Shown here one piece after another: positions 24,204-29,636 of a stretch of 64,000 bases of DNA (positions within the stretch are counted from its first letter, which is position 1; every line of letters begins with the position of its first letter). Source of the stretch: Cryptosporangium aurantiacum (GTDB taxonomy: Bacteria; Actinomycetota; Actinomycetes; Mycobacteriales; Cryptosporangiaceae). The position numbers were made by a program, and so were the translations under genes. Below the pieces are notes generated by a model that was not told where the DNA came from, did not search any database, and worked only from the letters and a program-made list of their open reading frames with translations. The stretch is from assembly GCF_900143005.1 (NCBI RefSeq), contig NZ_FRCS01000001.1, positions 310,001 to 374,000 of the forward strand, read 5' to 3'.

Positions 24204-24746
24204 TCACGTACCTCGTCGCCAGAACCGGCGGCGGGGCTTCGCCGGACGGGGCGCGCGCTGGGCGAGTTCTTCGGCGGCCAGCGGGGGGAGTTCGCCGGCG
24301 TCGCGGAGGGAGTGAGCGAACGCGAGGCCGTCGGCGAACGAACCCGACGGCGGGCGCCCGGCCGCCCACTGCACGAAGCGCGGAGTGAACGCCGCACCCA
24401 GCGACGCGGCCAGCAGCGGCCAGGCCCGCGCGACCTCGCCTGCCCGCTTCCGCAGCAGCGCCCGGCGAGCAGCGCCCACCCGGTCGGCGTCAAAGCCCGG
24501 CGGTAGCTCGCCGCCACCGACGAGCGCGGCCACCAGCGCAGCCTGCGCCGCCGCCAGCTCCGCGGCGCCGCCTGCGCGGGCCGCCGCGCCCGCGCTCGCG
24601 GCGCCCGCGCTCGCGGCGCCCGCGCTCGCGGCGCCCGCGCTCGCGGCGCCCGCGCTCGCGGCGCCCGCGCTCGCGGCGCCCGCGCGCCGGCCTGGCGCGC
24701 CCGCGCCTGCGTTCCCGCCTTCGGCGCCCGCGGCGGGCTCGTTCAT
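24204..24746 (-). CDS. Putative partner protein of the DUF692 enzyme (SCO6045-like C-terminal domain)
   Basis: The 180-residue protein has a repetitive Gly/Ala/Ser N-terminal half (about residues 10-55), then a helical domain with AAQAALVAALVG, GFDADRVGAARRALLRKRAGEVARAWPLLAASLG and FADGLAFAHSL, ending in a basic tail. The helical part resembles the small partners found beside actinobacterial DUF692 genes (SCO6045-like) and, more distantly, partners such as MbnC/DUF2063 that present RiPP precursors to MNIO enzymes. ATG 24746 overlaps the DUF692 stop by four bases. The family call is from memory of the domain pattern. Confidence 0.65.
   Translation of the reverse strand: MNEPAAGAEGGNAGAGAPGRRAGAASAGAASAGAASAGAASAGAASAGAASAGAAARAGGAAELAAAQAALVAALVGGGELPPGFDADRVGAARRALLRKRAGEVARAWPLLAASLGAAFTPRFVQWAAGRPPSGSFADGLAFAHSLRDAGELPPLAAEELAQRAPRPAKPRRRFWRRGT
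24586..24675 (-). repeat. 15-base tandem repeat, 6 exact copies
   Basis: Six identical copies of GCGCCCGCGCTCGCG (plus strand), followed by a partial copy to about 24686, encode an Ala/Gly/Ser pentapeptide repeat in the N-terminal half of the partner protein. There are no spacers, so it is not CRISPR. It would act as a flexible linker. Confidence 0.95.
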
Positions 24747-25579
24747 CGGGCGCCTGCGACGACGCCCGCCTCGACCGCCGTGGTGATCGCGGCGAGTTCG
24801 GCGCGGAGCACCTCGGCCGGCGGGTAGTCGCCGTCGCGTTCGAGCAGCCACCCGGCCGGCGTCGCACGCTCGGCCAGCGCGGTCACCAAGTCCAGTACCG
24901 GCTGCGGCACCGGATCGGTGTGCGTGTCGTGGTACAGCCCCTCGTGCTCCCGCCCACCGGCCACGTGGACGTACGCGACCCGATCGAGCGGTAAGCGGTC
25001 GAGCAGCGCGACCGGATCCTGGCCGCGGTTCTGCGCGTTCGCGTACACGTTCGCGACGTCCAGCAGCAGGAGCGCGCCGGTTCGGTCGAGGACCGCGTTC
25101 AGGAAGTCGGCCTCGTCGTACTCGTCGTCCGGCCAGTCGAACAGCGCCGCGATCGGCTCCAGCGCCAGCGGTACACCACCCAGCCCGTCGACGGTGCGGG
25201 CGTAGTTCGCGGCCAGCGCGTCCACCGCGGCTCGGGTCCGGGGCACCGGCAGCAGGTGCCCCGCCTCCAGGTCACCGGCCCGAACGAACGCGATGTGTTC
25301 GCTGACCAGCGGTGCGTCCAGCAGCGCCGCGCACTCGGCCAGGTGCGCCACCCGCGACGGCTCGACCGGCTCGGCGCCGCCCAGCGACAGCCGGACGCCG
25401 TGCGGCACGCACGTCACCCCGCGTTCCCGCAGCGTCGCCAGCGGGCCGGACAGCGGCAGGTGCGTGTGGATGCCCTCCGCGACGACCTCGCAGAACCGCA
25501 GGTCCGGCAGCTCCGCGACGATCCCCGCGATCTCCGGGCGCCAACCGACCCCGACGCCCAGCTCCGGCAGCGAGCTCAT
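24743..25579 (-). CDS. DUF692 / MNIO-family multinuclear iron oxidative enzyme
   Basis: The 278-residue protein is a DUF692 TIM-barrel. Likely metal-site residues lie where the family has them: H60 (VPHGVRLSL), H95 (LVSEHIAF), E141 (LALEPIA), D174 and N177 (LLLDVANVY), H205 (YVHVAGG), H220/D222 (HTDPVP) and E247 (LLERDG). Characterised relatives such as MbnB and TglH use two or three iron ions and oxygen to modify cysteines of RiPP precursors. Both ends overlap neighbours by four bases: the Cys-tailed membrane protein before it and the small partner after it. That coupling suggests the three act together. Confidence 0.85.
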   Translation of the reverse strand: MSSLPELGVGVGWRPEIAGIVAELPDLRFCEVVAEGIHTHLPLSGPLATLRERGVTCVPHGVRLSLGGAEPVEPSRVAHLAECAALLDAPLVSEHIAFVRAGDLEAGHLLPVPRTRAAVDALAANYARTVDGLGGVPLALEPIAALFDWPDDEYDEADFLNAVLDRTGALLLLDVANVYANAQNRGQDPVALLDRLPLDRVAYVHVAGGREHEGLYHDTHTDPVPQPVLDLVTALAERATPAGWLLERDGDYPPAEVLRAELAAITTAVEAGVVAGAR

Positions 25580-26520
25580 CCGCCGCACCCTCCTCCTCCG
25601 CCGCAACCACCGCCGCCACCGCAGCTCGACCCGCTCGAACACGATGACGAGCTGCTGCACGACGAACCGCTGTCCCCGCTGCCGCTGCTCGACGAGCTCG
25701 ACGTACCGGCCGCCGCCGCTCGCCGGATCTCCGACTCGGCAGCGAACGCGGGGTCGGCAGCGTACAGCGCCGCGGTGCCGAACAGCGCGACGCCCATCGC
25801 CGCACCGACCGCACCGTACGCACCCCACGCCGGGTTGAGCTCGGGCTTGAGGTGATCGTGGCGGCGGATCTCGTCCCGGAGCGCGGTTTCACCGGCCTTG
25901 GTCTTCTCCGGCGCGCCACCGAGCAGGAAGAAGATCTGGATCACGGTGAGCACGATCAGCAGCGCGGTCAGGTACCCGACCGGCTTGCCCGCGGCCGCTC
26001 CGTCCCAGAACCGGACGGCGCCGAGCATCAGCACCGGCGCCGGCAGCAGCCCGAGGAACCGGTAGGTCACCCGCTGCGGGCCGGTGAGCACCAGCCCGGC
26101 CTGTTCCAGGTCCTTACGAACGATGTCGACCGCCTGCCGGACCCGCTGGTCGGCCAGCAGCATCCAGACGTGCTTGCGGCCGCCGGTGATCGCCCGGTGG
26201 ACGGCGTTCTCCAGCGGGTGCAGGCCGTTGATCGGCGGACGGGACGCCGCGACGCCACCGCCGGAAGCAGCGGTGACCAGGTGGCGTGCCCGTAGCCCGG
26301 CGATCGCGGACTGGACGGCCTGCAGCGGCCCACCGGCCAGCAGCGCGAGCGCGAACGGATCGGACACCGGCAGCAGGGTCTCCGGTCCGGCGCCCCGCGC
26401 GATGCCGCGGCGCAGCACGACCGCCAACCAGATCGAGACCCCGGCCAGGACCGCGTATCCGATCAGGAACGTCGTCCCGGGGATCCCCCAGGTGTCACCA
26501 GGAGCCGCGAGGATTCTCAT
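25576..26520 (-). CDS. TIGR04222-type membrane protein with periodic Cys tail (copy A)
   Basis: The 314-residue protein starts MRILAAPGDTWGIPG, has a first transmembrane helix (LIGYAVLAGVSIWLAVVL), a soluble loop with LRARHLVTAASGG, then further hydrophobic segments (LLPAPVLMLGAV, YLTALLIVLTVIQIFFLL, AAMGVALFGTAALY). Its last 40 or so residues are only Ser, Gly, Cys and an Asp, with five cysteines at exact six-residue spacing and a final CGG. AAGGAGG precedes ATG 26520. The stop overlaps the DUF692 start. The serines use mixed AGC, TCG and TCA codons, so the tail is not a simple DNA repeat. Function unknown; the tail may be the DUF692 substrate. Confidence 0.8.
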   Translation of the reverse strand: MRILAAPGDTWGIPGTTFLIGYAVLAGVSIWLAVVLRRGIARGAGPETLLPVSDPFALALLAGGPLQAVQSAIAGLRARHLVTAASGGGVAASRPPINGLHPLENAVHRAITGGRKHVWMLLADQRVRQAVDIVRKDLEQAGLVLTGPQRVTYRFLGLLPAPVLMLGAVRFWDGAAAGKPVGYLTALLIVLTVIQIFFLLGGAPEKTKAGETALRDEIRRHDHLKPELNPAWGAYGAVGAAMGVALFGTAALYAADPAFAAESEIRRAAAAGTSSSSSSGSGDSGSSCSSSSSCSSGSSCGGGGGCGGGGGCGG

Positions 26521-26641
26521 CGGGCGCCTCCTTCCGCTTGTCCGCTCCCGTGCCCGTCCGTCCGGGACAGGCCCTTCTGAGCTGAGAGTGGCAGGTCGAC
26601 CCGGTGCGCGGCTCGGGCGTGTCGCAGTATTGACAGCCTGG

Positions 26642-27616
26642 TCAGCCGCCGCAGCTCGACCCGCTCGACGAGGACGACGAACTGCACGACGACGAGGACG
26701 AACTGCACGAGGACGAGCTGCTGCACGACGAGGACGAACTGCCCGACGAGGAACTGCTGCACGACGACGACCCGGATCCGCTGTCAACCGTCGAACCGCT
26801 CGCGCCCACGTCCGAGTTCGGGATCCCGGCCTCCGTGGCGAACGCCGGGTCGGCGACGTACAGCGACGCGGCGCCGAACAGCGCGACGCCCATCGCCGCA
26901 CCGGTCGCTCCGTAGGCGTCGAAGGCCGGCCGGTACGACGGCCGGAGGTGTTCGTAGCGGCGAACTTCCTGCCGCACCGCCGTTCGACCGGCGTGCGTGG
27001 TGTCCGGGACGCTACCCAGCAGGAACACCAGCTCGACGAGGACCAGAACGAACACCAGCAACGTGAGGACGCCGACCGGCTCGCCACGCGCAACCCCGGC
27101 GAACCACCGCACGACCCCGAGTACCAGCACCGGCACCAGAAGCAGCCCGGAGAGCCGGTAATACGCGCGCTGCGCCGCGGTGGTGGCGAGCCCGTCCTGC
27201 TCCAACCGGGCCCGCGCGGCGCCGATCGCGGCCGCCACGTGCCCGTCGGCCAGGATCGTCCACAGCCGGGTGCGCCCGGAGGCGATCGCCCACAGGGTGG
27301 CCGCCTCCACCGAGCCCAGCCCGTCGGCGGTCGACCTGCTCGCCACGATGCCGCCGCCGGCAGCCGCGGTGACCAGGTGGCGGGCGCGCAACGTGGCGAT
27401 CGCGGTCGGGACGGCGAGCCACGGTCCGCCGCTCAGCAACGCGACCAGCAGGGGATCGGTGATCGGGCGGAGCGTCTGCGGCGCCGGGCCGCGAGTGAGC
27501 GCGTGCCGGATCACCACCGTGGCCCCGATCGCCACCCCGGCGAGGACGACGTAGATCAGGAGGAACGCGGGACCGGAGATGCCCCAGGTGTCACCGGGAG
27601 CCGCGAAGGTTCTCAT
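26642..27616 (-). CDS. TIGR04222-type membrane protein with Ser/Cys tail (copy B)
   Basis: This 324-residue paralogue of copy A shares the start (MRTFAAPGDTWGISG), the LRARHLVTAAAGG loop, and hydrophobic segments LLIYVVLAGVAIGATVVI, LLLVPVLVLGVV, LLVFVLVLVELVFLLG and AAMGVALFGAASLY. Its tail after about residue 275 is nearly pure serine with five cysteines spaced 12, 6, 7 and 11 residues apart and ends GSSCGG. GGGAGG precedes ATG 27616. The start lies inside the end of the channel gene (26-base overlap), and copy A follows after 121 bases. Tandem duplication followed by tail divergence is likely. Confidence 0.8.
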   Translation of the reverse strand: MRTFAAPGDTWGISGPAFLLIYVVLAGVAIGATVVIRHALTRGPAPQTLRPITDPLLVALLSGGPWLAVPTAIATLRARHLVTAAAGGGIVASRSTADGLGSVEAATLWAIASGRTRLWTILADGHVAAAIGAARARLEQDGLATTAAQRAYYRLSGLLLVPVLVLGVVRWFAGVARGEPVGVLTLLVFVLVLVELVFLLGSVPDTTHAGRTAVRQEVRRYEHLRPSYRPAFDAYGATGAAMGVALFGAASLYVADPAFATEAGIPNSDVGASGSTVDSGSGSSSCSSSSSGSSSSSCSSSSSCSSSSSSCSSSSSSSGSSCGG

Positions 27617-29636
27617 CGGGGGCCTCCCTGCCGTCGGCCGCGGGGTCCCCTCGCGGAACGTTCTGGTCTGCTCGGCGGTCGAGGATCGCACGCAGCGACG
27701 ACCAGGGGCTCCACGGTGTCGTCACCGCGACAGGCCCGGACCGCCACCGGCCCGCCAACCGCGCCGACACCGGGCGGAACCGACGTCCGGCCGGCGCTCC
27801 GTACGGCGGACCGGCGTCCTCCGGAACACCGCCCGCGTCCGGAACGTCGCTCGTCGCCCCCGTGCGCAACAGCACGTCGGTCAGCCCGGCTCGGGTCGCC
27901 ACCAGTAACACGGTGTCTCCGGCGGCGACCGTGGCGTCCGGGCGGGGATGCCAGGTCAGGGTCCGCGTCCGTCCGGCGCCTGCGCGGCCACCGTTGCGCG
28001 GTGCCGCCACCTCCCGGACGTGGCCGAAGACCCGCACGCGGCCGGACTGCTCCAGGTCGCTCAACGGCTGCTGGTCGGCGGGGCTGCCGGGCCCGACCGG
28101 TACCTCGGCGACCAGCAGCACGCCCCGGCCGTGCCCGATCGCGGCCTTGACCTCGCGGCCGAGCATCGCGGCGAGGAAGACCGGCGCGGCCGCGGCCGAG
28201 ACCGACAGCGAGACGGCCTGCGGCAGCGCGCCGGTGATGCGGTCGGAGAGGTCCTGGTCGAACAGCCGGAGGACGATGCGGAGGTCCTGGTCCATCGCCC
28301 ACACCGCGAGCCCGACCTCGACGTTCGCCACGTCGTCGTCGGTCGCCGCGACCACGCTGCGCGCCCGGTGCGCCCTGGCGGCGCGCAGCGTGTGCTCGTC
28401 GCTGGCGTCCCCGCGCACGACCGGGACGCCCAGCCGCCGCGACACGGCCGCGACCGAGGCGTCCGGATCAGTGTCGATCCCGACCACCGGAACCCCAGCG
28501 GCCCGGAGCTGTTCGACCATCCGGAGGCCCACCGTCCCCAGCCCGCAGACGACGACGTGCCCGGTGACCCGGCCGACCGAGGGCCCGAACGTGCCCGCCA
28601 ACCGGCTGCCGAGCAGGTCGTCGACCGCGAACGCGGTGATCAACGCGATCAGGACGACGCCGGCCAGCATCGAACCGGCCACGAACAGCGTGACCGCGGC
28701 GCCCGCGCGCTCGACCCCGTCCGGCGCTCCGGTGGTGAGCGTGGAGACCATTCCGTAGAACGAGTTGAGCCAGCTCAGCCCCAGCCCGTCCTTGAGCACG
28801 AAGGAACCGACCGCCACCAGCGCGGACAGGCCGGCGAGCGTCCATCGCAGACGGCCGCTCGCCCACCGGGTGAACCCGCCGGGCCAGCGCATCCGGCGGC
28901 GGGTGACGTCGGCCACCCGCAGCGCCGGTTCGCCGAGCACGAGTTCGGCGTCCGTGCAGTCGCGGTCGGGCAGCAGCGCGGTGCCCTCCGGTGCGGCCGG
29001 ATCGGTGCGGGCGAGGACGACGTACGGGCTGCCTGCGACGGTTTCGGGCGGTCCCGCGTTGAGTGTGCGGCCGCCGATCTCGATCAGCTGCTGTCCGTCG
29101 CCGAGCGCGGCGTCGACGAACGACGGTGCCGCGATCAGCGACGACGAGAGCACGGTGCAGTCGTGGCCGAACAGACCCTCGACGCGGCGCGCGAGCTTCT
29201 CGTCGAACATCCGGATCACCAGGCGGATCTCCGGGTTCAGCTCGCGGGCGGCCAGCGCGGCGTGCAGGTTCCCGACGTCGTCGTCGGCCAGTAGCACGAG
29301 CGCCGACGCGCTCGGAACCCCGGCGGCCTCCAGCACCGCTTTGTCCCGCCCGGAACCGGTGCGGACCGTCGCTCCGGACCGTCGGAGGTGGGGGACGAAC
29401 GGCCCCTCCAGGTCCGGCACGACGACCGTGACCCATCCCGTCTCCGATGAGGACGCCGGGCGAGCGGCCGGCCGTGCGGACGGAAGCCGACGGAGCCGGG
29501 AACCGTTGGCCGGCATCGTGGTCGGCTTCCTACCGGTCGCGACGTCCTCCAGCTTGCCGAGCTCCTCGACCAGCCGAACGGCTAGCGCATCGGAGCCCAC
29601 CAGAACGACCGGCGGGTGTGACCCCGTTAACTCCAT
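27591..29636 (-). CDS. RCK (TrkA-N) channel-like protein, CASTOR/POLLUX-like
   Basis: The 681-residue protein has an N-terminal Rossmann-like RCK domain (about 9-200, with VVLVGSDALAVRLVEELG), two transmembrane helices (about 262-283 and 314-338) flanking a pore-like loop (STLTTGAPDG, 298-307), and a second RCK domain beginning HVVVCGLGTVGLRMVEQL at 360. The loop lacks the potassium filter TVGYG, so ion selectivity is uncertain; CASTOR/POLLUX-type channels or NAD-dependent ion regulators are the nearest idea. It heads the minus-strand series leading into the TIGR04222/DUF692 genes and shares a 255-base promoter region with amt. Confidence 0.78.
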   Translation of the reverse strand: MELTGSHPPVVLVGSDALAVRLVEELGKLEDVATGRKPTTMPANGSRLRRLPSARPAARPASSSETGWVTVVVPDLEGPFVPHLRRSGATVRTGSGRDKAVLEAAGVPSASALVLLADDDVGNLHAALAARELNPEIRLVIRMFDEKLARRVEGLFGHDCTVLSSSLIAAPSFVDAALGDGQQLIEIGGRTLNAGPPETVAGSPYVVLARTDPAAPEGTALLPDRDCTDAELVLGEPALRVADVTRRRMRWPGGFTRWASGRLRWTLAGLSALVAVGSFVLKDGLGLSWLNSFYGMVSTLTTGAPDGVERAGAAVTLFVAGSMLAGVVLIALITAFAVDDLLGSRLAGTFGPSVGRVTGHVVVCGLGTVGLRMVEQLRAAGVPVVGIDTDPDASVAAVSRRLGVPVVRGDASDEHTLRAARAHRARSVVAATDDDVANVEVGLAVWAMDQDLRIVLRLFDQDLSDRITGALPQAVSLSVSAAAAPVFLAAMLGREVKAAIGHGRGVLLVAEVPVGPGSPADQQPLSDLEQSGRVRVFGHVREVAAPRNGGRAGAGRTRTLTWHPRPDATVAAGDTVLLVATRAGLTDVLLRTGATSDVPDAGGVPEDAGPPYGAPAGRRFRPVSARLAGRWRSGPVAVTTPWSPWSSLRAILDRRADQNVPRGDPAADGREAPDENLRGSR

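Follow-up and report, generated by a model that had tools for sequence, protein, structure and literature searches.

What does an MNIO (multinuclear nonheme iron-dependent oxidative enzyme; DUF692) modify when no short precursor gene lies beside it? This question was raised by a four-gene set in a 64,000-nucleotide stretch of Cryptosporangium aurantiacum DNA (contig NZ_FRCS01000001.1 of assembly GCF_900143005.1, positions 310,001 to 374,000), referred to here as the window. The set spans 27616 to 24204 and encodes two TIGR04222 membrane proteins (TIGR04222-A and TIGR04222-B), an MNIO and a partner protein, all on the minus strand. An initial annotation of the sequence had proposed that the Cys-containing C-terminal tails of the membrane proteins are the substrates of the enzyme. 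Genomic evidence strongly supported this proposal, with a TIGR04222 gene upstream of the MNIO gene at every assessable related locus and a CGG end on most tails, and on these associations the TIGR04222 tails are very probably MNIO substrates.

Both membrane proteins matched the NCBIfam TIGR04222 profile (TIGR04222-A, 108.8 bits, E = 3.1e-31; TIGR04222-B, 145.5 bits, E = 1.9e-42; curated cutoff, 43 bits). TIGR04222-A (26642 to 27616, minus strand; 324 amino acids) has a Ser-rich tail that reads SGSGSSSCSSSSS...SSCGG in the translated sequence (26642 to 26782), and low-complexity tandem repeats lie at 26666 to 26771, inside this tail region. TIGR04222-B (25576 to 26520, minus strand; 314 amino acids) has three transmembrane (TM) segments, a DUF2207_C-related domain and a Cys tail (residues ~277 to 314; 25576 to 25692, minus strand) that ends CGGGGGCGG and is disordered in the AlphaFold model. 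Each tail contains five Cys residues and ends in CGG. Neither TIGR04222 protein has any other Cys, and the partner has none at all.

These features were shared by the tails of homologous loci. Cys was present in 72 of 72 measured tails, of which 60 had an exact CGG end; the tail of locus L187 was left out, its reading frame being open into the following genes. The last Cys lay at position -3 or -5 in 68 measured tails, the modal Cys spacing was C-x5-C (120/249), and Lys and Arg were almost absent. No Cys was found before the last 60 residues in 56 of 74 TIGR04222 proteins, and the only invariant columns in an alignment of 54 proteins were the terminal Cys-Gly (C312 and G313 of TIGR04222-B). 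A comparison of 36 Gly/Ser-rich tails linked Cys content to the enzyme: of 30 tails with at least three Cys residues, 26 were MNIO adjacent, 3 had an MNIO elsewhere in the genome and 1 was at a contig end, whereas none of the 6 Cys-poor tails was MNIO adjacent (p = 1e-4 in a test that ignores phylogeny). CGG-ended, Cys-tailed TIGR04222 proteins whose genes are not linked to the MNIO gene of their genome were also observed (L119, L121 and L098; 640 kb off, on another contig or at a distant site), which suggests that the MNIO can act in trans.

Genome contigs were searched with a profile built from an alignment of the MNIO alone, and 80 loci were obtained. As these are the closest relatives of the window MNIO, their uniformity describes this subfamily. 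The available DNA began at or near the MNIO gene in nine loci, and the upstream gene could be assessed in the other 71. A TIGR04222 gene was upstream of the MNIO gene in 71/71 assessable loci, and a partner gene was downstream in 80/80. The order TIGR04222-MNIO-partner was constant, and the overlaps were mostly the same, across 71 independently assembled loci from ~23 genera; the TIGR04222-MNIO boundary was ATGA or GTGA in 50 of 68 cases, and the MNIO-partner boundary was an exact 4-bp overlap in 47 of 50. Only these three genes recurred across the genera, the remaining neighbors being lineage specific. Among 197 genomes of the class, TIGR04222 (above the cutoff) was detected in 57, PF05114 in 45 and both in 39, with TIGR04222 alone in 18 and the MNIO alone in 6 (Fisher p = 5e-21, phylogeny ignored). 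TIGR04222 was encoded within 5 kb of 34 of the 51 MNIO matches, on the same strand every time. The co-occurrence that the initial annotation had proposed to check was thus found both among genomes and as adjacency, and the TIGR04222-MNIO-partner arrangement is far beyond chance.

A search for a conventional substrate gave no alternative. Among open reading frames (ORFs) of 20 to 130 amino acids with at least two Cys residues, no conserved short ORF was adjacent to the 80 MNIO genes, which bore out the statement that a separate precursor is absent. Short Cys ORFs did form clusters, but none of these exceeded 24 loci, their offsets were scattered and amounted to 1 kb or more, and the examples resembled out-of-frame shadows of flanking genes; they were discarded. 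A zinc-ribbon-like Cys ORF of 60 amino acids near streptomycete MNIO genes was likewise rejected as a substitute precursor because it was present in 15 of 17 such genomes, including Cys-tailed ones, and was sometimes far from the MNIO gene. A short leader-core precursor gene, as in a classical ribosomally synthesized and posttranslationally modified peptide pathway, was thus not found beside these MNIO genes, and the putative substrate is much larger, at ~300 amino acids.

The MNIO (24743 to 25579, minus strand; 278 amino acids) matched PF05114 (MbnB_TglH_ChrH) with 250.8 bits (E = 1.8e-74; cutoff, 25), so that the family calls of the initial annotation were confirmed for the enzyme as for the membrane proteins. 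The four ORFs were also as it had described, the MNIO gene overlapping both neighbors by a 4-bp ATGA (minus strand), at 25576 to 25579 with the TIGR04222-B stop and at 24743 to 24746 with the partner start. The iron-cluster ligands of TglH are His71, His107, Glu151, Asp184, Asn187, His216, Asp229, His231 and Glu258 (PMC10880893). The predicted iron ligands of the window MNIO are H60, H95, E141, D174, N177, H205, D218, H220 and E247, and counterparts of all nine TglH ligands were matched through alignments in 81/81 MNIO sequences. The best NCBIfam matches were to BufB (167 of 310 bits) and HvfB (149 of 360 bits), both below the curated cutoff; by sequence the window MNIO is related to the BufB/HvfB branch and is not an equivalog.

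The partner (24204 to 24746, minus strand; 180 amino acids) may be of PME type 2, a group related in structure to TglI and DUF2063-RRE proteins but lacking a DUF2063 signature. It had no Pfam or NCBIfam match, and searches of PDB sequences with either the partner or TIGR04222 gave nothing useful. Its model has a confident helical core at residues 47 to 164, with a predicted local distance difference test (pLDDT) score above 90. In a Foldseek search of 350,542 chains the top match was MbnC (7dz9_C; probability, 0.80; E = 0.63), and a VIA ranking placed a TglHI entry first (8hi7_A; Z = 5.3) and MbnC second (Z = 4.7). These matches were weak, and both are to structures of MNIO systems. Natural fusions of the partner to the MNIO C terminus occur in several genomes and are comparable to an engineered HvfBC fusion (PMC13419390). 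A near-perfect 15-bp tandem repeat of 6.9 copies at 24582 to 24685 encodes an AASAG-type (Ala/Ser/Gly) repeat within the partner's N-terminal extension, where it precedes the conserved core and is modeled with low confidence.

The side of the membrane on which the tail lies was examined from charge, structure and homology. The TM segments of TIGR04222-B are at residues ~19 to 37, 157 to 175 and 181 to 199. Mean Lys-plus-Arg counts were low before TM1 (0.09) and in the hairpin loop (0.8) and higher just after TM1 (3.3), before TM2 (3.2) and after TM3 (6.6). By the positive-inside rule, this distribution places the N terminus outside, with both the middle domain and the segment after TM3 on the inner side. 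The AlphaFold model is confident to approximately residue 270, and its last helix (residues 232 to 247) is short, with 16 residues, and kinked and is followed by short helices. The TIGR04222 domain was aligned by hhalign to DUF2207_C at 97%, with controls below 1%. In DUF2207 proteins a signal sequence is followed by an extracellular domain, a TM helix, the homologous domain, which includes the hairpin, and finally a Gly/Ser tail, an order that implies a cytoplasmic tail. Overall, the charge bias, the model and this distant homology suggest that the TIGR04222 tail is probably on the cytoplasmic face, and the surface layer suggested in the initial annotation was not supported. The tails of the DUF2207 proteins examined (L253 to L269) are mostly Gly/Ser rich, with a constant GGSW end and almost no Cys. 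A relation of the TIGR04222 domain to GOLPH3/GPP34 is suggestive only (Z of 5.6 to 7.0; hhalign, only 49%).

Several observations weighed against this placement or against the substrate assignment itself. Antoine et al. (2025) placed the TIGR04222 tail in the periplasm on the basis of predicted topology (PMC12452194), and the last helix is of borderline hydrophobicity in the window subfamily (mean pseudo-dG on a biological scale, +1.3). This helix could be a fourth TM segment, with the modified tail exported and anchored on the outer face, a possibility that we regard as unlikely but the most serious of the alternatives. Its pseudo-dG is about +1 here, against mostly +2 to +12 elsewhere, which makes it more hydrophobic than in the majority of members, and the tail is nearly free of Lys and Arg. 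The mean windowed hydropathy of the helix, however, is only ~1.28, and in the model it spans 16 residues and gives way to short helices; the same position is clearly polar in streptomycete members that are Cys tailed and MNIO adjacent, and in DUF2207 relatives it resembles YLPYAIVFGDAERWAKAF. The published periplasmic assignment thus looks open to challenge.

Other points bore on the substrate. Nine loci of Streptomyces-like genomes (L103, L104 and L108 to L114) encode an MNIO-partner fusion near a Cys-free TIGR04222 protein, and in genomes G016, G096 and G188 (L115, L116 and L117) such a fusion had no TIGR04222 gene nearby in the stretch examined. Some of these MNIOs must therefore have another substrate or none, and the pairing of MNIO and Cys tail is not universal. 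The MNIO gene of genome G160 adjoins that of a TIGR04222 protein with a Cys-free tail. A conserved metal-related or transport neighbor was sought around the loci and none was seen, the partner fold matches are weak as given above, and biochemical evidence for, or an experimental test of, TIGR04222 tail modification was not found in the papers searched. The tail Cys residues might accordingly be left unmodified, serving as a metal-binding or redox tail while the MNIO acts on something encoded elsewhere. Catalysis on the tail rests on inference, and MNIOs persist in relatives lacking a Cys-tailed TIGR04222 neighbor; in the window subfamily, however, the operon linkage is one to one, the terminal Cys-Gly is invariant and no conserved alternative Cys ORF is nearby, and we consider this explanation improbable. 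Least probable, by a small step, is that the last helix is an internal signal peptide and that signal peptidase I cleaves the modified tail, once exported, at the conserved DP[AG]FA to free a bufferin-like Cys peptide: the positive segment, the 16-residue hydrophobic stretch, A/G/T/V at -3 in 64 of 74 proteins and A at -1 in 68 of 74 mimic such a site, but conservation is about as high for F/L at -2 and for D-P at -5/-4, a similar [DE]P-x-[FL] motif is found in streptomycete members whose last helix is polar, a pattern more suggestive of a structural helix, and the TIGR04222-B model is confident to approximately residue 270.

The operon may then be understood as an actinobacterial TIGR04222-type MNIO modification operon whose substrates would be Ser/Gly/Cys tails, with no short precursor released. 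Bound by its helical partner, the MNIO would oxidize the regularly spaced tail Cys residues in the cytosol, and the near-invariant Cys-Gly-Gly end would probably be part of recognition or an essential or priority modified site. The modified tail would stay joined to the TIGR04222 body, with its three TM helices and DUF2207_C-like domain, at the inner membrane face. Analogy with bufferins and oxazolin suggests that these Cys residues, once modified, would probably be thiooxazole-type soft-metal (copper) ligands, a first guess made because the nearest curated MNIO relatives are BufB and HvfB. We infer all four of catalysis on the tail, chemistry, metal and topology. A role of the tails as a metal ligand array is plausible by this analogy, and we give about even chances to the complete scheme, in which a DUF2207_C-related scaffold presents an inward-facing, tethered Cys array from its cytosolic tail and the MNIO and partner convert its Cys residues into metal-binding heterocycles, with no export or release at any stage.

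The initial annotation had known of no described function for this arrangement, but its central idea is not new. Antoine et al. (2025) reported more than 3,500 TIGR04222 proteins, mostly actinobacterial and often encoded beside MNIO genes, described their Ser/Gly tails with Cys and proposed a subset as MNIO substrates, with PME-type-2 partners (PMC12452194). Their proposal came from the same associations, and the idea of the tail as a substrate is thus already known as a prediction. Their loci resemble the window set in gene families, tail composition, a putatively PME-type-2-like partner and proposed substrate and differ in the tail being periplasmic there and favored as cytoplasmic here; the terminal CGG signature and the DUF2207_C link were not found in the text of that paper (PMC12452194). 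Bufferins (BufA/B/C) and oxazolin (HvfA/B/C) likewise pair a BufB/HvfB-branch MNIO with a partner and have repeated Cys residues as targets, those of oxazolin being converted to copper-binding 5-thiooxazoles (PMC13419390). Their precursors, however, have Sec signal peptides and their partners are of the DUF2063 type, whereas here an integral membrane protein provides the candidate substrate in its tail and the partner is short and putatively PME-type-2-like. TglH shares the nine iron ligands with the window MNIO, and the partner most resembles, if weakly, the MbnC and TglHI structures, but in MbnB/MbnC and TglH/TglI a short leader-core precursor is used or Cys is added to a peptide scaffold, and the product is released. 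DUF2207 (YciQ-like) proteins share the homologous C-terminal domain, the TM hairpin and, in most cases, a Gly/Ser-rich tail whose end (GGSW) is constant and differ in having a signal peptide, an extracellular N-terminal domain and nearly Cys-free tails.

The C. aurantiacum genome contains two TIGR04222 genes and one MNIO gene in total, all of them in the four-gene set. The cassette is also present in three sister species of the genus, where the tails again end in CGG but differ in length; one of the three has a single TIGR04222 gene. A gene for a 681-amino-acid TrkA_N/TrkA_C protein (27591 to 29636) ends within the start of the TIGR04222-A gene with a 26-bp overlap, so that the operon may be cotranscribed with a potassium transport-like gene; at least one of the sister species (L288) has a similar sequence upstream of the cassette.

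The terminal CGG rule provides a handle on substrate recognition and on finding more substrates. Which membrane face bears the tail determines the biology, the choice being between an internal metal buffer or sensor and a surface chelator. An inward-facing array, if true, would amount to a bufferin analogue built on a protein tail and located across the membrane from bufferins themselves. The MNIO products named for known systems are peptides, mostly secreted; if the tails are indeed substrates, a widespread three-gene cassette would carry MNIO chemistry from peptide natural products to resident membrane proteins.

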